Assembly (NCBI GenBank): GCA_947628805.1
Contig: CANRBG010000015.1
Location: forward strand, 1-37,542
Length of the DNA: 37,542 nt
Direction: 5' to 3'
Source of the DNA: an uncultured Oscillospiraceae bacterium
Lineage (GTDB): Bacteria; Bacillota; Clostridia; Oscillospirales; Oscillospiraceae
Shown: piece after piece, positions 1 through 6,294 of the stretch
Layout of the letters: the number at the start of each line of letters is the position of its first letter
Position numbering within the stretch: the stretch's first letter is position 1
Made by a program: the position numbers and the translations under genes
The notes under the pieces: generated by a model
Database searches by the model: none
Told to the model about the DNA's origin: nothing
The model's input: only the letters and a program-made list of their open reading frames with translations

Positions 1-131
1 AACCGGCAGTCGAACCGCAGCCACAGCGCCAGAAAAAACGCCAAGCTGACCGCAATGGCGTCATAGACCGCCAGCCCTACATTAACGAGCTGCCAGTGCT
101 CTATTCCTCTTTTCTGTCTGTCCTTGTCCAA
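1..131 (-). CDS. Membrane polysaccharide-biosynthesis protein, N-terminal part only
   Basis: A leftward frame enters from the window edge; only about 44 N-terminal residues are visible. Residues 23-41 read YDAIAVSLAFFLALWLRFD, a first membrane helix ending in the LRFD motif. That motif is typical of the membrane domain of NDP-sugar epimerase/dehydratases (CapD/PglF/WbpM/EpsC) and of some polyprenyl-phosphate sugar transferases. These proteins act at the inner face of the membrane in capsule, exopolysaccharide or glycoprotein glycan synthesis. I chose the TTG at 131-129 because AAAGGGG lies 8 nt upstream and a perfect promoter lies at 248-276; no ATG fits. The catalytic part is outside the window, so the exact enzyme is not known. 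Confidence 0.55.
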   Translation of the reverse strand, partial: MDKDRQKRGIEHWQLVNVGLAVYDAIAVSLAFFLALWLRFDCR

Positions 132-247
132 CGCCCTTGCCCCTTTGTCCCAAGCAGGTTCCCCAAATTGCCTTATCTCGCCCCACCGCAAGAGTGTCCG
201 CTTATGCTATTATATGCCCAAGCTTATCTCTCCGTACATCTCAGGGA

Positions 248-276
248 ATTATACATTGTTTTAAAGTTATTGTCAA
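248..276 (-). promoter_or_regulatory. Perfect sigma-A promoter for the left-edge polysaccharide gene
   Basis: On the minus strand TTGACA (276-271), a 17-bp spacer and TATAAT (253-248) match the housekeeping consensus at all twelve positions. Transcription would start near 241, leaving a leader of about 110 nt before the TTG start at 131. Confidence 0.75.
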
Positions 277-360
277 CATAAAGAGTCAGTCCAAATACTT
301 ACAATTGTCCACGGACTTCAATACCGCTTCAGCGTCGTCAAACGCCGCCTTTAGGTATGT

Positions 361-389
361 TTGTCAGCGTACCTTCATAACATTAGATG
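361..389 (+). promoter_or_regulatory. Weak candidate promoter for the small ORF and serine recombinase
   Basis: TTGTCA (361-366), 17 bp and TAGATG (384-389) lie upstream of the GGAGG ribosome site at 406-410. The -10 is poor. The stretch 277-416 otherwise shows no gene, only short dyads such as GTCCACGGAC at 306-315. Confidence 0.25.
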
Positions 390-416
390 CAAGAATTACG
401 TTTATGGAGGTTAAGA

Positions 417-554
417 ATGCCTAAAGACGAAACCAACGCTATTTCCTCTCGCAAATTGCCAGCTCATCCCTACCGCATCGTTCGCCTATTTGTCGGCAAG
501 CGCACGGCGGCCCAAGTCGTGGCAGACCTGGTGAAAGTACATAACGCTGCCTGA
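417..554 (+). CDS. Small 45-residue protein upstream of the serine recombinase
   Basis: The ATG at 417 follows a strong GGAGG (406-410) at 6 nt spacing. The product is 45 residues, with a basic middle (residues about 16-29) and a C-terminus that looks helical (AAQVVADLVKVH). The stop is only 11 nt before the recombinase start, so the two are probably co-transcribed and translationally linked. I do not recognise the family. Short basic ORFs directly before large serine recombinases are common in clostridial mobile elements, so an accessory or regulatory role for the recombinase is a reasonable guess only. Confidence 0.5.
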   Translation: MPKDETNAISSRKLPAHPYRIVRLFVGKRTAAQVVADLVKVHNAA

Positions 555-565
555 GGGATCGCAAA

Positions 566-2131
566 ATGTCTGCTACTAAAGAAAAATACAAGACCGCCCG
601 CTATGGCCGGCTGTCACGGGAGGATGGCGACAAGCCGGAGAGCGACAGCATCGTCAATCAGCTCTACCTGATGGATGACTACTGCTCCCGCCATCCGGAG
701 CTGGAGGTCGTGGACGACTATACCGACGACGGCTTCACAGGCACGAATTTTGACCGTCCCGGCTTCCAGCGCATGTTGAGGGACATTGAAGCGGAAAAGA
801 TCGACTGCGTCATCGTGAAAGACCTCTCCCGCTTCGGCCGGGATTATATCGACATGGGCTACTACTTGGAGCGGTGGTTCCCGGCCAGGGGCGTGCGCTT
901 CATCGCCGTGAACGACGGCGTGGACAGCCTGAACGGCCCCTACGATATGCTCCTGCCCCTCAAGAACGTCTTCAACGCCCAGTACGCCAGGGACATCTCC
1001 GCCAAGGTCCGCAGCGCCTTCAAGGCTAAGCAGCGGCGCGGCGAGTTCGTGGGCGCCTTCGCCTCCTACGGCTACCTGAAAGACCCGGCGGACCACAACC
1101 ACCTCATCATCGACCCGGTGGCAGCAGGGACCGTACTGCGCATCTTTGAGATGGCCGCCAAAGGCATCGGGCAAATCCGCATCGCAAAGCAGCTCAACGC
1201 CGAAGGCATCCCATGCCCTAGCGAGTACAAGCGTCAGATGGGCGAGCGGTATACCAACGGCCAGCGGCTGGAGTCCACCCGCTACTGGACCTACGCCACC
1301 ATCCACCGGATGCTGCAAAACGAGATGTATCTGGGCAGCATGGTGTCGGCCCGCTCCGTCCGCCCCGACATGCACAGCAAAGCCCGCTCCGCAGACAAGA
1401 GCAACTGGATCGTAGTGCCCGGCACCCACGAGCCAATCATCTCCCGGCAGCTCTGGGACACGGTCCAGGCGCAGATAAGCAAAAACGCTCGTCCCATTGA
1501 TTTCGCGGGCAATGTGAGCCGCTTCGCCGGGCTTTTGACCTGCGGCGACTGTGGGCGTGCCATGTGCAAGACCACCTGGAACAGCCGCGTGACCTACTCC
1601 TGCGGCTCCTACCACCGCTATGGTTCCAGCGTATGTTCCCCTCATTACATCCGTGAAGACATGCTCTCATCCGTCATTCTGGAGGACCTGAACCGGGTCG
1701 TCGCCGCCGTCACCGACCTGCGGGCCCTGGCCGAACGCAACAAGGCCTCCCCCGCCGCCCGTCAGGAAGGCGAAAAGCAGCGGCTCCAGGCGGCGCTGGC
1801 CAGGATACAGCGCCTGAAAAAGAGCGCCTATGAGGACTACCGGGACAAGCTGCTCAGCCGGGAGGAATTCATCCGCTACAAGGCGGATTATGACCGACAG
1901 GAGCGTGACATCACACAGCAGCTGAAGAGGGCCTGTGCCGACAGCTCCAATCCTATCCTCCGGCAGCCCTGGGTCGACGAACTGGTGCGCGCGGGAAGGC
2001 TGACGGAATTGGATCGGGCAACGCTCGTCCAGACCGTGAAGTCTGTCCGCGTGTTTGCAGACGGGCATTTAGAGATCACTTACCTGTTTTCCGCTGATCT
2101 GCGCCCGCTTCTGGAGGCACACAAGCCATAG
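566..2131 (+). CDS. Large serine recombinase (TndX/resolvase-type)
   Basis: This 521-residue site-specific recombinase cuts and rejoins DNA through a 5'-phosphoserine link. The N-terminal resolvase domain has the catalytic serine in RLS (Ser17) and the arginine motif DLSRFGRD (Arg89, Arg92). A recombinase DNA-binding domain follows. A zinc ribbon (CGDCG... then two further Cys, about residues 325-358) and a charged coiled coil (about 395-455) complete the usual large-serine-recombinase order and length. The gene reads right, away from the polysaccharide gene, and converges on the invertible segment at 2222-2546. Enzymes of this type usually integrate or excise mobile elements, but no conjugation genes accompany it here. 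It may belong to a small or decayed element, or act on a local site; the target is not visible. Confidence 0.92.
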   Translation: MSATKEKYKTARYGRLSREDGDKPESDSIVNQLYLMDDYCSRHPELEVVDDYTDDGFTGTNFDRPGFQRMLRDIEAEKIDCVIVKDLSRFGRDYIDMGYYLERWFPARGVRFIAVNDGVDSLNGPYDMLLPLKNVFNAQYARDISAKVRSAFKAKQRRGEFVGAFASYGYLKDPADHNHLIIDPVAAGTVLRIFEMAAKGIGQIRIAKQLNAEGIPCPSEYKRQMGERYTNGQRLESTRYWTYATIHRMLQNEMYLGSMVSARSVRPDMHSKARSADKSNWIVVPGTHEPIISRQLWDTVQAQISKNARPIDFAGNVSRFAGLLTCGDCGRAMCKTTWNSRVTYSCGSYHRYGSSVCSPHYIREDMLSSVILEDLNRVVAAVTDLRALAERNKASPAARQEGEKQRLQAALARIQRLKKSAYEDYRDKLLSREEFIRYKADYDRQERDITQQLKRACADSSNPILRQPWVDELVRAGRLTELDRATLVQTVKSVRVFADGHLEITYLFSADLRPLLEAHKP

Positions 2132-2221
2132 GCGATGGTTACCGAGAAGCGGGATACCACCCAGTATACCAGCGGGCGGGAAATGGCACGGCTCCGTATA
2201 TGTCCCCACTTCGTTTTCTGC

Positions 2222-2249
2222 ACCACATAATCCGCATTATGTGGTGCGA
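2222..2249 (+). repeat. Left inverted repeat (recombinase core-type site)
   Basis: This 28-bp copy is the exact reverse complement of 2519-2546. With the flanking G at 2221 counted on the shared axis, it is built of 11-bp arms GCACCACATAA and TTATGTGGTGC around the 6-bp centre TCCGCA (2220-2247). The 11-6-11 layout matches Xer-family tyrosine-recombinase core sites. The asymmetric centre gives the site a direction. No T-run follows this copy on either strand. Confidence 0.85.
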
Positions 2250-2319
2250 AGTTCAGTGTGAGACGCAAAAAATCGGTACCCATCTCCATAAAGGCAGGCG
2301 AGCAGCCGATATATCTCCC

Positions 2320-2354
2320 CCGTGCATCCAGAAGGTCTGTACTTCTTTGCACGG
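2320..2354. other. Stem-loop inside the invertible segment
   Basis: CCGTGCA (2320-2326) pairs with TGCACGG (2348-2354). An inner AGAAG (2330-2334) pairs with CTTCT (2342-2346). There is no T-run. The role is unknown; it could be a protein-binding or RNA structure that moves with the promoter when the segment flips. Confidence 0.45.
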
Positions 2355-2453
2355 CAAGAGATGGGCGTCTCTACACTAGTGCGCCCAAAATGTAAATTTT
2401 CACCAATCATTTTAGGGTATTTTTACGATCCCGCCATAGTCCGTCATATGCGG

Positions 2454-2482
2454 TTGACAATCACAGTCGAATCCGCTATAAT
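2454..2482 (+). promoter_or_regulatory. Perfect consensus promoter inside the invertible segment
   Basis: TTGACA (2454-2459), 17 bp and TATAAT (2477-2482) match at all positions. The predicted start is near 2489, only about 30 nt before the right inverted repeat. No rightward gene lies downstream, because the recombinase (2563-3399) is read from the other strand. In this orientation the promoter would give a very short terminated RNA or antisense to the recombinase. Confidence 0.8.
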
Positions 2483-2518
2483 CTGTGCGTTACTGTAATA
2501 TTGTTTTAATGTACTTCC

Positions 2519-2546
2519 TCGCACCACATAATGCGGATTATGTGGT
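2519..2546 (-). repeat. Right inverted repeat (recombinase core-type site)
   Basis: This is the exact reverse complement of 2222-2249, with the central hexamer reading TGCGGA on the plus strand. It lies 16 bp past the stop codon of the tyrosine recombinase. Its hairpin-forming arms are followed by seven T, so it also resembles a rightward terminator. Confidence 0.85.
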
Positions 2547-2554
2547 ATTTTTTT
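2521..2554 (+). terminator. Terminator formed by the right inverted repeat
   Basis: ACCACATAAT and ATTATGTGGT pair around GCGG, and a run of seven T follows at 2548-2554. It would stop transcription from the promoter at 2454-2482 after about 65 nt. The left repeat has the same stem but no T-run, so termination should depend on the orientation of the segment. Confidence 0.55.
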
Positions 2555-2562
2555 ATGTCATA

Positions 2563-3399
2563 TCATATCAGTAGAAGCAGGCGTTCGATCTGCCTCCGCT
2601 GTTCTGTCCCTGAACGCATGGTGTAGATACGGGTCGTATCGATGCTGGCGTGACCTAGAATGTCCGCCAGACGCACGATGTCCTTATATGCCTTGTAGTA
2701 CGTCCGGGCGAACAGGTGCCGCAGGTTGTGGGGGAACACCTTTCCCAGGACCACTTTTGCCCGCACCGCCAAGCGCTTCATCATCTTCCAGATGTTGCTC
2801 CGGTCCAATGGCAGGCCGCTCCTTGTCATAAATACCTGCCCTTGGGAAATGCCCTTTCTCCTGCAATACTTCAGCAAGACCGCGCACAGCCTTTTGGGCA
2901 GCAGGATCACTCGGACCCTGCCCTTGTTCCGTATCTCCGCCTGCCCAGTCCGTAGGCTCTCCACCGTAATGGCGCGCACCTCGCTGACCCGGATGCCGGT
3001 GGAACAGACTGTCTGCACCAGCATCTCCAGCCGGCTGTCTCCCGCCGCTCTGGCCGTCTCCACCAACCGGCAGTACTCCTGCTGTGTCAGCTCTTTCTCC
3101 TTGCCGGAAAAGTTTGTCCTCTGCACCTTCAAATATCGCAGTCTCCATCCCGGCTGGCCGGCAAAGGCCAGATATGCATTCACCGCCGCCAGCATGGAGT
3201 TGACGCTGGCCGGGGCATAACCCCTTTCCTGCAGGTGCTGCTTGTACGCGATGAGCGTGCTCTTATCCTCTACCGCGCCCCCGCAGAACGACGCCAACAG
3301 TTCCACATCGTGCAGGTACTTGGTCACCGTCGCCACGCTTCGCTCCCGCTCCTGTAGGTACAGCCGGAATGCCTCTGTCGTCTCTTGGTCTATCCGCAT
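2563..3399 (-). CDS. Tyrosine recombinase, probable invertase of the adjacent switch
   Basis: This 278-residue phage-integrase-family enzyme has an N-terminal core-binding domain (about residues 5-85) and a C-terminal catalytic domain. Catalytic residues are visible in order: Arg137 (STGIRVSEV), Lys159 (NKGR), His224 and Arg227 (HNLRH), His250 (GHAS) and Tyr259 (IYT). The ATG at 3399 is chosen because AAAGGAGG lies just upstream and the domain begins there; an in-frame extension to 3510 lacks such a site. A possible -10 TAAAAT lies at 3425-3420. At this length it resembles XerC/D-like invertases rather than large integrases that carry an arm-binding domain. Its 3' end abuts the 28-bp core-like repeat, so promoter inversion is the most likely job; integration of a lost element is the alternative. 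Confidence 0.9.
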   Translation of the reverse strand: MRIDQETTEAFRLYLQERERSVATVTKYLHDVELLASFCGGAVEDKSTLIAYKQHLQERGYAPASVNSMLAAVNAYLAFAGQPGWRLRYLKVQRTNFSGKEKELTQQEYCRLVETARAAGDSRLEMLVQTVCSTGIRVSEVRAITVESLRTGQAEIRNKGRVRVILLPKRLCAVLLKYCRRKGISQGQVFMTRSGLPLDRSNIWKMMKRLAVRAKVVLGKVFPHNLRHLFARTYYKAYKDIVRLADILGHASIDTTRIYTMRSGTEQRRQIERLLLLI

Positions 3400-3514
3400 A
3401 TTGAATCCTCCTTTCTCCCATTTTACCCAAAAGAACACGGTAAAACTTTTCCGCCCAAACGTATGAGCATACTGCAGCAACAAGAGAAAGTAGACAGGAA
3501 AAACACCCAACGAG

Positions 3515-3703
3515 TCAAAAGCCCAGTTCGGTACAAATCCGAACCGGGCTTTTGTAACCTAAGGCAGCAGCAGAACGTATACCGTTGAAGTGATAAACGT
3601 AGCCGCCAAGGAGTTTTGGCACATCATCTGTGTCAGCAAGACGAAGGTCGAGAGCCGGCCCTTCTTTCATCCAGCCGTTGAGGGCTTCAATAGCAGCCGC
3701 CTC
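3515..3703 (-). pseudogene. IS3-family transposase remnant, C-terminal 62 codons
   Basis: Read leftward from 3703, the frame gives AAAIEALNGWMKEG, then a stretch ending LGYKSP and finally TELGF before TGA at 3517-3515. This is the tail of the integrase-core transposase (OrfB) of IS3/IS150-type elements, including the family-typical ALGYKSP motif. The DDE catalytic core is absent and several positions look degenerate, so it is dead. It begins within 6 nt of the dehydrogenase stop codon and in the same frame, so the IS evidently ended up directly behind that gene before it decayed. Confidence 0.7.
3517..3553 (-). terminator. Hairpin at the end of the IS remnant, likely terminator for the dehydrogenase
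   Basis: AAAAGCCCAGTTCGG (3517-3531) pairs with CCGAACCGGGCTTTT (3539-3553) with one A-C mismatch. On the minus strand the stem is followed directly by TTTTGACT. It overlaps the last codons of the transposase remnant and is the first plausible stop for leftward transcription from 4706. Confidence 0.6.
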
Positions 3704-3706
3704 ATT

Positions 3707-4675
3707 TTACAAGTGCTGCAATATCGTGCGGACCTTTTCTACCGCGTCAAAAAAGCCCCTGTACTCCTCCGGCGCCCAGCGCTCCCGGATGCGCTGCTGC
3801 ACACCGCCGGGCCCTACGACAGACGGGACCGACAGCGCCACGTCCCGCACGCCATGCTCCCCCATCAGCGGAGAACAGACACACCCAATCATGGGGCGCT
3901 GATTGAGGATAGCATCCGTGAGCTGGCAGACACAGGTAGCAACGCCATAGTGGGTCCTTCCCTTGGCACGAATGATCTCGGTGCCCATGCCTTTTGTCTT
4001 TTCGGCAAGCTCGGCACGAACCGACTCGTCCCACCGGATGTTCGCCTCTTTACAATATTCCTCAATAGGGATGCCGCCCACTGACACACGACTCCATATC
4101 GGCACCTGGCCATCGCCATGCTCTCCCACCAGGTATCCCTGGATCACGCCGGTGCCCAAGCTCACATAGTCGGCGATGCAGCGAACGAACCGGGAGCTAT
4201 CCAAAATGCAGCCTGTTCCGAACACGCGCCCGTTGGGAAAGTCCATCCACTCGCTGACCTTGTACGTAAGGATATCCACCGGGTTGGTGATCACCAGGAT
4301 CACCCCGCGGGTATAGTATTTCTGAATAGACGCTGTGACCTCGCGCAGCAGATGTACATTCTCATCCGCCAGGTCCATTCTGGATTCGCCCGGCGCCCGG
4401 TTGCGGCCGACAGCAAGGATGATAAGGTCGCAGTCCGCGCAGTCGGGATAGCCGCCGGCATACAGGTCGGCAGTCCCCAGCATAGGGATACCATGGCGGA
4501 TATCCCACGCCTCTCCCTCCGCCTTTTCCCTGTTGCGGTCGATCAGCACGATCTCCCTGGCGATATCACGCAGGGACAGCGCATAGGCCACCGTCGAGCC
4601 CACATAACCTGACCCGATGATGGCCACTTTTCGATTGCCGTATGATCTTGGCTGCTGCTCCATCATTCCGTCCAT
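3707..4675 (-). CDS. L-2-hydroxyacid dehydrogenase (lactate/malate dehydrogenase family)
   Basis: This cytoplasmic NAD-dependent enzyme interconverts a 2-keto acid and an L-2-hydroxy acid. Visible motifs are the Rossmann GSGYVGS near the N-terminus, TNPVDILTY, LDSSRF (substrate-binding Arg), and GEHGD with the catalytic His. The active-site loop reads GRNRAPGESRMDL. Lactate dehydrogenases normally have Gln at the second variable position (ANQKPGETR); here it is Arg (about residue 93), the residue linked to malate/oxaloacetate preference. I therefore avoid the symbol ldh. The start is uncertain: the ATG at 4696 would leave only about 10 nt of leader, while the ATGs at 4675 and 4666 follow a GGAG. 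It has its own promoter at 4713-4741. Confidence 0.85.
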   Translation of the reverse strand: MDGMMEQQPRSYGNRKVAIIGSGYVGSTVAYALSLRDIAREIVLIDRNREKAEGEAWDIRHGIPMLGTADLYAGGYPDCADCDLIILAVGRNRAPGESRMDLADENVHLLREVTASIQKYYTRGVILVITNPVDILTYKVSEWMDFPNGRVFGTGCILDSSRFVRCIADYVSLGTGVIQGYLVGEHGDGQVPIWSRVSVGGIPIEEYCKEANIRWDESVRAELAEKTKGMGTEIIRAKGRTHYGVATCVCQLTDAILNQRPMIGCVCSPLMGEHGVRDVALSVPSVVGPGGVQQRIRERWAPEEYRGFFDAVEKVRTILQHL

Positions 4676-4712
4676 TTCTCCGTGTAAATCATACATTTAA
4701 ACTGTGGAGTGC

Positions 4713-4741
4713 ATTATAGCATAGAAGTATTTATTCTGCAA
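4713..4741 (-). promoter_or_regulatory. Promoter of the dehydrogenase gene
   Basis: TTGCAG (4741-4736), 17 bp and TATAAT (4718-4713) on the minus strand. Transcription would start near 4706. The interval 4742-4909 shows no intact gene and probably holds debris of the truncated deacetylase. Confidence 0.65.
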
Positions 4742-4909
4742 CCTGCAACGAAAACGGCAGATGACCGGTACTGGCCTGACTCCCGGATCGATATCAGCTG
4801 CCGTGTGCAGAGCGGGACAAACTTCTCCGGAAAAGCGGCCCGCCGGTGCATCCGCATTAGCGAGATAGACCAGGCTGTCCCCTCTATAGAGCGAGAAAGA
4901 GCTTTCACA

Positions 4910-5161
4910 TCATTGCCGCACTCTTACATCACCCCATGCCGCGTCGAAGGTCAGGCTCACGGCCTTGTTATCCCGCTGCACGGAGTAGATTGGTAGCTCC
5001 TTTGCCGAGGCGGACACCCCAACGATCGCAGGGCTGTTCACCACCCAGAATATAGCTATCACCGCAAGCACCAGGGCGCCTGGCCCCAACAGCTTGCGGT
5101 GACTCGTAAGTACGGTTCTTATTTTGTTCACAGGACATACCTCCGGCTGTTTTTGGTCCAT
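4910..5161 (-). pseudogene. Truncated polysaccharide deacetylase (PdaB/sporulation type)
   Basis: The frame encodes 83 residues: a basic N-terminus, one membrane/signal helix (about residues 25-48), then LPIYSVQRDNKAVSLTFDAAWGD. The pattern LPIYSV followed by LTFDAAWG is the start of the NodB (CE4) domain in the Firmicute sporulation deacetylases. The frame then ends at a TGA about seven residues later, before any of the remaining catalytic motifs (H-x3-H, R-x-GG). The downstream DNA to 4742 does not restore the domain in any frame I can read. It is best seen as a deleted gene, with the dehydrogenase promoter now within the scar. Confidence 0.6.
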
Positions 5162-5210
5162 CCTATGAATTTTACCGGTGGTTTATGCGTTCCGGCCGCA
5201 AAACAGCCGC

Positions 5211-5882
5211 CTATTCCGCCCAGATGATGTTCTCCGCACCGGCGCCCTGTTCAAAGTGGTATTTCACGATGCCCAGGTCCACCCGGGAAAACGGACCCCG
5301 CAGGGCCTCGGCCCGGACCCTGCCGTCCGTCTCCAGCGTAAAGCGAAACTTCTGCTGGTTCACGGCCGTGGGTGCCAGCATGGCGTACTCCATCCCCCGG
5401 CGGAACCAGTTGGGCATGTCCCCGCTCACCTGGCATAGTTTTTCCATGGGCTTATCCTTGTGGGCCGCGCCCTGGGTGGCCCCATAGCCCAGCGCAATTA
5501 TCAGCACCAGCTTCTCTCCCGGTCCCACTTCGATACGGGCCTTCTTTTTGGAGAAGGTCAGTCCTACCCAGCAGGTGTTCAGACCCAGTGTCTGGGCCAG
5601 GATCACAAGCCGCTCGCCATAGTACCCGGCCCGCTCCTCCAGACCGTCGTCATCCGGACCTACCAGCGCCAGGTAGTTGCTCACGCCGGAAAAGCTGCCG
5701 TACTTGGCAACGGCGCAGTCGAACGCCCCGGGCTCGTCCGCCACCAACTGGATATGCAGATCTCCCCCCCGATTGCAGGCGTCCACCTCGTTCCGGAGCT
5801 TGGCCAGCACATCCGCCGGGATGGGCTTGTCCAGATACTGCCGCACGCTGTGCCGCGCGCGCATCGCCTCCAAAACGTCCAT
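5211..5882 (-). CDS. Nitroreductase-family FMN oxidoreductase
   Basis: This 223-residue protein begins with the nitroreductase signature LEAMRARHSVRQYLDKPI, in which the Arg/Ser/Arg cluster binds FMN phosphate. Mid-protein it has GVSNYLALVG and a GYYGERLVILAQTLGLNTCWVG helix typical of the family, and then ALGYGA. The C-terminal half resembles the longer variant in which a second partial nitroreductase repeat contributes to the flavin site. Such enzymes reduce nitro, quinone or ene substrates with NAD(P)H; the substrate cannot be told. AAAGGAG lies 6 nt before the ATG at 5882. It has its own promoter at 5921-5949 and is followed by the deacetylase remnant. Confidence 0.85.
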   Translation of the reverse strand: MDVLEAMRARHSVRQYLDKPIPADVLAKLRNEVDACNRGGDLHIQLVADEPGAFDCAVAKYGSFSGVSNYLALVGPDDDGLEERAGYYGERLVILAQTLGLNTCWVGLTFSKKKARIEVGPGEKLVLIIALGYGATQGAAHKDKPMEKLCQVSGDMPNWFRRGMEYAMLAPTAVNQQKFRFTLETDGRVRAEALRGPFSRVDLGIVKYHFEQGAGAENIIWAE

Positions 5883-5920
5883 GGTATTCTCCTTTCGCCT
5901 CCTTATAGCCTTATGATCCG

Positions 5921-5949
5921 TTTATAAACCGACGTTGATATCATGTCAA
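5921..5949 (-). promoter_or_regulatory. Promoter of the nitroreductase gene
   Basis: TTGACA (5949-5944), 17 bp and TATAAA (5926-5921) on the minus strand, about 40 nt before the nitroreductase start. Confidence 0.65.
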
Positions 5950-5964
5950 CCGGACCGGATCCCC

Positions 5965-6294
5965 TCACGCCCGGATAAACCGGCTATCCGCTGCCGGCGA
6001 AGTATCGTCGGACATGTACCGCTCCACCCGCATGTGCAGGTCGTACTTCTCCCGCAGGGTCGCGATCCGGCCCATCATGGGCGAGGCGTGGTGCGCGTCC
6101 AAAGAAGCCTGATCTTTCCAGCTGTCGATCAGCAAGACGGTATTTTCGTCGTCCATGGGCAAGAAATATTCATACCTGAGGTTACCGGCCTCCGCCCGGA
6201 TATCCGCCGTAACGCCGCTTTCCGTCATCTCCCGGGCGAAAGCCTGGGCGCGGCCCGGCGCGCCGGTATAATAAATGTTCACGGTGATGGCCAT
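5965..6294 (-). CDS. Putative quinol monooxygenase (ABM domain)
   Basis: This 109-residue protein starts MAITVNIYYTG and carries the antibiotic-biosynthesis-monooxygenase fold signature. The signature is a small beta-strand opening, then TVLLIDSWKDQASLDAHHASP, where the W-x-D/S-x2-ALDAH-H pattern is the usual ABM core. The short length fits YgiN-like cofactor-free mono-oxygenases that act on quinols or related aromatics. AGGAGG lies 7 nt before the ATG. Together with the nitroreductase it could form a small quinone/redox-stress pair; this is inference from adjacency. Confidence 0.75.
   Translation of the reverse strand: MAITVNIYYTGAPGRAQAFAREMTESGVTADIRAEAGNLRYEYFLPMDDENTVLLIDSWKDQASLDAHHASPMMGRIATLREKYDLHMRVERYMSDDTSPAADSRFIRA

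Follow-up and report, generated by a model that had tools for sequence, protein, structure and literature searches.

Bacteroides provides the best-known cases of phase variation through inverting promoters, and the locus described here raises the question of whether bacteria that are probably gut Clostridia of the Oscillospiraceae use a switch of this kind, which enzyme would turn it and which genes it would govern. The window, the whole stretch of 37,542 nucleotides that was analysed, is an entire contig of a MAG that is 82% complete (G000). Two 28-nt arms within it (2222-2249 and 2519-2546), 100% complementary and 269 nt apart, bound a segment (2250-2518, 269 bp, no strand) that is predicted from its relatives to invert and has a G+C content of 45%, against 61% for the contig. 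Simple arithmetic puts the chance of meeting such a perfect 28-bp pair across a few hundred bases at the order of 1e-10 per window, and no second long perfect repeat pair was listed in positions 1-6000. The arms flank a perfect sigma-70 promoter, TTGACA-17-TATAAT (2454-2482, + strand, 12/12 matches), which as assembled points rightward at the adjacent recombinase gene, antisense to it, drives no nearby gene and would be OFF for the genes to the left. A terminator-like hairpin with a T-run (2265-2310, - strand, -14.8 kcal/mol, coordinates placed by eye) points the opposite way, away from the recombinase; it was found by an RNA-folding test only and is absent from the output of two simpler terminator scans, and the stretch 2250-2399 folds better than its shuffles on both strands (z about -4.2). 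Taken as a whole, the locus is very likely to be a self-contained DNA-inversion switch, with a promoter and an opposing terminator on a segment served by the recombinase next to it.

The putative invertase is a tyrosine recombinase (P0001; 2563-3399, - strand, 278 aa from ATG) whose 3' end faces the switch, with 16 bp between its stop codon and the repeat. It matches PF00589 (E = 4.9e-23, above the cut-off) and PF02899, a SAM-like N-terminal domain, and it carries R138, K160, H225, R228, H251 and Y260 (P0001 numbering), invariant across 11 aligned members, which we take to be the six catalytic residues of tyrosine recombinases (R-K-H-R-H-Y). By its sequence the protein is Xer-like and is not filed as Xer, as it scores far below the NCBIfam equivalog cut-offs for XerD (105.8 against 329.6 bits) and XerC (104.2 against 335.15). 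Named homologues are found in Pusillibacter and Subdoligranulum (48-52% identical) and in Monoglobus, of another order (47%). PsrA of Streptococcus, annotated as a DNA invertase and reported in the accounts available to invert hsdS genes, is 30.5% identical over 91% of the query. A scan of viral contigs with P0001, the dyad and the promoter stretch returned no relative. The original prediction, made from the window alone, of a perfect 28-bp inverted repeat enclosing 269 bp, a perfect promoter inside it and a tyrosine recombinase with all catalytic residues ending 16 bp away is borne out on each of these points.

The same prediction described each repeat as an 11-6-11 dyad, and this layout does not hold. 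Relatives conserve arms of 10 bp and a centre of 4 bp, and we therefore prefer to read the 24-bp dyad as ACCACATAAT-CCGC-ATTATGTGGT. The predicted distal recombination site (2222-2249, + strand) contains the dyad at 2222-2245 with centre CCGC, and the predicted proximal site (2519-2546, - strand) contains it at 2523-2546, where the centre reads GCGG on the + strand.

The combination of recombinase and repeats recurs widely. A P0001 homologue was found at E<=1e-30 in 22 of 35 genomes of the genus, with 17 matches in G032, 10 in G011 and 8 in G024 (some of them partial), and at E<=1e-60 in 78 of 300 genomes of the family. Pooling of the loci, removal of duplicate recombinase sequences and a requirement for at least 420 bp downstream gave 72 members, the window included. 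A repeat pair with at least 17/20 matches, its start no more than 120 bp from the recombinase stop, lies just after the stop in 54 of the 72, compared with 1/72 for shuffles and 1/72 for an upstream control in which members with too little upstream sequence were counted as misses; by the same threshold and distance, 18 members have no such pair. With up to three mismatches allowed, the 35 genus genomes contain 67 instances of the dyad pattern, spread over 15 of them, and four of the reversed pattern.

Both orientations are present among these relatives. Homologous inner segments form 96 pairs among the 54 loci, and relative to the recombinase 63 of these pairs, which are not independent of one another, have the same and 33 the opposite orientation; promoters scoring at least 10 point toward the recombinase in 22 segments and away from it in seven. 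Within G032, L055 is opposite to L010, L012 and L018 at about 90% identity. Another opposite pair, L047 and L082, is 94% identical. Two loci of G025, L193 and L098, are 99.3% identical over 277 bp and oppositely oriented, and their flanks agree at 62/62 bases on the recombinase side, where the L193 contig starts, and at 96% over 154 bases on the target side. Because relatives carry the same switch in both orientations, it very probably flips, and judged from sequence it would very probably turn surface genes on and off; the window copy is present in a single orientation in one incomplete MAG (82% complete). Mixed orientations in the reads would make contigs end at the proximal site, and several MAG contigs do appear to end in or just after it (L085, L188, L189, L190, L191 and L192; the sites are cut and most are unverifiable as dyads). 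The excess of such ends is suggestive only: among 179 matches from the genus and family searches, with partial ones removed and L085 outside the count, contigs end within 60 bp in 5/94 cases on the proximal side and in 0/85 upstream (p=0.06, not significant), and within 350 bp in 10 and 4 cases, respectively (p=0.17). In four further loci with relatives of the recombinase, L068 (=L030), L071 (=L033), L077 (=L034) and L073 (=L046), the gene that the promoter faces encodes a signal-peptide surface protein (truncated at the contig end in L073), a single ACAACGGAATGTTGATTCTGTTGT-type dyad separates the two, and a proximal site is not evident. Such loci may be switches that have become locked, or may act as donors when loci exchange sequence.

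The crossover can be placed within four bases from naturally occurring isomers. L074 and L076, from the same MAG and 86% identical, have promoters reading away from and toward the recombinase, respectively; their inner half-sites show eight mismatches when compared unswapped and none when swapped, and their outer half-sites none unswapped and six swapped. Five more pairs, hand-picked from the group with the centre TCAC, behave in the same way (2/0 for the inner and 0/2 for the outer halves). The comparison was extended to all homologous pairs with both sites located, 32 opposite and 61 in the same orientation. For the inner halves, the swapped alignment is better in five opposite pairs and the unswapped in none, with 27 ties, whereas in same-orientation pairs the unswapped is better in 26 and the swapped in none, with 35 ties. 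For the outer halves, the unswapped alignment is better in six opposite pairs and the swapped in three (23 ties), and in 14 and three same-orientation pairs, respectively (44 ties). Since inner half-sites are swapped between isomers and outer ones are not, strand exchange would take place in the 4-bp centre; as far as these sequences go, the exchange is clear where the sites are informative, and it rests on two groups of loci.

The centres themselves point the same way. Sites were located ignoring the centre, and 41 loci with at least 53% recombinase identity yielded 33 with both sites, or 24 distinct pairs. The centre is identical within the locus in 33/33 loci and in 24/24 distinct pairs, compared with a mean of 1.75 and a maximum of nine when partners are permuted. 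In these 24 pairs, mismatches affect 9.6% of arm positions and 0/96 centre positions; between loci the corresponding differences are 12.2% for arms and 59.9% for centres. A third, tandem copy of the recombination site is seen in L202 (1080-1500) and L056, and these extra copies retain the locus-specific centre. The comparison of relatives shows, at the level of the loci compared, that the module is conserved, that both orientations occur and that crossover falls in the centre. The original proposal of an invertible promoter served by the adjacent recombinase is thus supported by the conserved module, the two orientations in relatives, the exchange of inner half-sites and the matched centres. 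For the window, we infer that its own segment inverts, with P0001 as the enzyme responsible, and that in the OFF state the recombinase would be damped by the antisense promoter and the terminator.

With the crossover mapped to four bases, two questions become simple to test: by what means recombinases keep many switches separate, and in what way a switch acts back on the recombinase that turns it. Ten loci of the window's arm type in G032 have six different centres. We tentatively suggest, at somewhat less than even odds, that the switches form an addressed set, in which shared arms would bind recombinases that could cross-act, private 4-bp centres would be matched by their own partners only, and flipping would rewire the recombinase through the antisense promoter and the terminator and leave OFF more stable than ON. 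Private crossover centres would therefore allow many inversion switches to coexist without scrambling the chromosome. This suggestion is weakened because near-identical copies within a genome share a centre and because most opposite pairs are uninformative for the swap. A common centre is found in 10/76 within-genome locus pairs (G032 has two such triplets, G011 a single pair and G026 three loci), and the loci concerned are apparently near-identical copies. Near-identical switch loci with common arms and centre lie on separate contigs of one MAG in G032 (L060/L061/L089 and L063/L064/L066) and in G026 (L083/L084/L086), and may be recent duplications or reflect strain mixture or variants. If they are genuine duplicates, recombination between the sites of different copies could occur, and if the switches do form an addressed set, copies with a common centre might exchange promoters or targets.

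In the mechanism that we propose for the window, the recombinase would bind the 10-bp arms of both dyads, and strand exchange in the 4-bp centres would invert the 269-bp segment with its strong promoter and the predicted intrinsic terminator facing the other way. In the ON state the promoter would face the target operon and transcribe it, with the recombinase gene behind. In OFF, the orientation assembled here, the promoter would fire antisense into the recombinase gene and the terminator would halt recombinase read-through short of the target, and together the two may damp the recombinase. The other segments carry elements of the same kind. An inner promoter scoring at least 11.5 is found in 22/54 segments compared with 0.19% of 1,080 shuffles, and one scoring at least 9.5 in 49/54 compared with 21% of shuffles; a second group of loci has the promoter TTGCTT-17-TATAAT, whose score of 9.5 is at this level reached by 21% of shuffles. 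A terminator-like hairpin opposite to the promoter is found in 18 of 44 distinct segments with a directional promoter, one in the same direction in 6/44, and in shuffles 1/88. Among the 15 segments closest to the window, 12 have the opposite terminator and three of these also one in the same direction.

Invertible capsule promoters in Bacteroides (Mpi and others) likewise, in the accounts available, have an inverting promoter in front of polysaccharide operons. The invertase Mpi is of the serine type and acts in trans on many loci, whereas here a tyrosine recombinase gene lies at each locus. That invertible promoters beside recombinases such as P0001 are an established kind, as originally claimed, is in line with cases in print from Clostridia (PMC11892184). 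According to the available text of that study, inverton group 139 (32/33 from Clostridia) is linked to tyrosine-type recombinase group 35, with the recombinase nearby, enriched in the non-regulatable position, and cultures of Intestinimonas butyriciproducens and Clostridium sp. D5 provide examples whose orientation shifts. Group 139 resembles the window in joining a Clostridia inverton to a tyrosine-type recombinase; the word "helicase" is absent from the main text of the study, and the description of the group, as available, mentions neither shared arms with locus-specific centres nor a paired terminator, section 6 referring to motifs possibly tied to transcription termination (PMC11892184). 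For such Clostridia switches, no description of either feature was found in the literature covered, most of it outside subscription journals and some of it available in part.

The fim switch of E. coli (FimB/FimE), in the account available, is like the window in having a promoter on the invertible segment and an adjoining recombinase gene (PMC2784873). An orientation-dependent terminator acts there on the transcript of the fimE recombinase, and because fim has this comparable terminator after fimE we regard feedback on the recombinase as a reasoned proposal; judged from sequence alone, a pattern of this type by the recombinase transcript is present in our segments. The two systems differ in that the fim terminator is Rho-dependent, whereas that of the window is intrinsic-like and lies inside the segment, and in that fim has two recombinases, whereas a single P0001-like match at E<=1e-30 was found in G000, which is 82% complete (PMC2784873 for fim). 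In Clostridioides difficile, RecV, a tyrosine recombinase of the XerC/D family, inverts 195 bp between 21-bp repeats before the gene of the surface protein CwpV; as described in the same available text, the cwpV promoter is outside the segment and recV is remote (PMC2784873), whereas the segment of the window contains both promoter and terminator and adjoins its recombinase gene.

The genes behind the switches were classed in 63 loci by reading the next ORF. It is a large or signal-peptide surface-type ORF in 40 loci, three of which begin with a LytR-CpsA-Psr protein or homologue, and a helicase in ten; the 13 loci in the unassigned class are the window, those cut by contig ends, L058, L067, L148, L158, L160, L163 and L167. 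In some loci the target ORF starts 0.7-1.5 kb after the recombinase. A family search with eight of the proteins found a helicase with HA domains, Polysacc_synt_2, DUF7601 repeats, LytR-CpsA-Psr, Wzz and HTH; two large secreted proteins (L062, L065) gave no Pfam match. Proteins of a signal-peptide group beginning MTKR... are 916 to 1,393 aa long across the 14 loci that have a repeat pair or an isomer, and in a record of Pusillibacter faecalis the recombinase is followed by an S-layer homology protein. The targets in relatives thus appear to be mostly surface proteins and polysaccharide operons, and the self-contained switches form a family, reaching 17 recombinase matches in one genome, whose members mostly precede large surface-type proteins and polysaccharide operons.

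The window departs from this arrangement on its left side. Most relatives that were read have a sense-oriented gene after the switch, whereas here a large serine recombinase gene convergent with the switch intervenes (P0002; 566-2131, + strand, 521 aa, PF00239, PF07508 and PF13408). The original prediction named a polysaccharide gene as the nearest leftward target; the first gene to the left is P0002. The polysaccharide biosynthesis gene (1-131, - strand, TTG start at 131) is represented by its 5' end, cut by the contig end, and is homologous to L053:11868-13853 (PF02719, Polysacc_synt_2). As the target of the switch it is plausible by ancestry, since in L053 the same gene comes after a helicase gene behind a switch, and the polysaccharide operon was probably the ancestral target; its present control is doubtful, with P0002 in between and a second perfect promoter (248-276, - strand) reading left into it. 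The stretch 242-300 around this promoter is 81-84% identical to the promoter part of relatives' invertible segments and here lacks such repeats. A flipped window promoter would first run antisense through the P0002 gene. Because P0002 intervenes and the polysaccharide gene has its own promoter, the window switch may be uncoupled, and these two features probably weaken or end control of the operon here; most likely, the locus was rearranged, which left the operon with a fixed promoter, either newly acquired or retained, and deprived the switch of its direct target. An inserted gene seems to have separated the window copy from that target.

The likeliest of the alternatives, to which we give nearly an even chance, is that the switch was once functional and has decayed or become locked, the P0002 insertion having removed its target and left the operon on the fixed promoter copy (276-248), so that inversion would be without consequence. 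The position of P0002 between switch and polysaccharide gene, the second perfect promoter without such repeats and the failure to find the helicase gene of related loci in G000 (an incomplete MAG, 82%) all favour it. The open recombinase, the perfect 28-bp repeats and the perfect promoter argue against long neglect, and transcripts could run on over about 2 kb into the operon, as the minus strand between switch and operon has weak terminator-like sites only at 1404-1382 and the scanned region has four such sites against 3.4 expected, which is no excess. This alternative concerns the effect of the switch in the strain rather than its ability to flip, and adds to the self-contained inversion switch without competing with it.

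It is improbable that the switch mainly controls its neighbouring recombinases, running antisense to the tyrosine one in one orientation and to the serine one in the other. Both flanking genes do converge on the segment; however, most relatives read have a sense-oriented target on the distal side, and the serine recombinase looks like a local insertion. Stretches of 353-2093, a serine recombinase unit, recur in L055 and L171, and a small ORF upstream of P0002 (417-554, + strand, 45 aa, read by eye) falls within the conserved part. At these loci, in two other genomes, a 3.4-kb stretch with a P0002-related serine recombinase (L055:13481-16872 and L171:2921-6312) is 94% identical, a degree of similarity that suggests a recently mobile element. 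P0002 was also considered as a second invertase for the switch and rejected: it is a large serine recombinase with Resolvase, Recombinase and zinc-ribbon domains, and the 94%-identical stretch elsewhere and the lack of a second long perfect repeat pair in positions 1-6000 also count against this role.

We consider it very improbable that a small mobile element uses the dyads for attachment, the tyrosine recombinase being its integrase, as the phage-integrase family of the enzyme and its multiple copies (17 matches in G032) might suggest, since the two sites are inverted, the recombinase lies outside the pair in 54 loci (from a search beside the gene only), the segments carry promoters pointing either way, mostly ahead of surface-type genes, and the exchange of half-sites is what inversion would produce. 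That the repeats serve the convergent genes as bidirectional terminators and are not recombination sites has the slightest chance of all, for although the dyad 2523-2546 and the T that follows it scored as terminator-like in the terminator scan, and an additional terminator role is possible, segments are found inverted and the centres are matched in the inverted sense within the locus (33/33) although the arms vary.

Returning to the targets of the self-contained switches, a superfamily-2 helicase comes first behind several of them (L053:9285-11816, L056:1604-3706, L059:5748-7679, L060:3170-5701 and L166), with six HA-domain stretches (PF03457) in L053, and is followed by polysaccharide genes where the sequence allows, also in another genus. 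The helicase was found in 13/300 family genomes, and the next gene is polysaccharide-synthesis-like by eye in 10 of the 13 loci read. A reading of the gene as a defence function was dropped, as PADLOC gave partial matches to parts of the helicase only. UpxY or LoaP hold the position of an operon-specific factor elsewhere, and the helicase may be such a factor in their place. Upstream of the same helicase, L179 (G139) and L182 (G253), of one genus, have another inverton-like type with the dyad TCCGAAAAGGTGTACCTTTTCGGA, and their inner segments are in opposite orientation and 83% identical over 123 bp.
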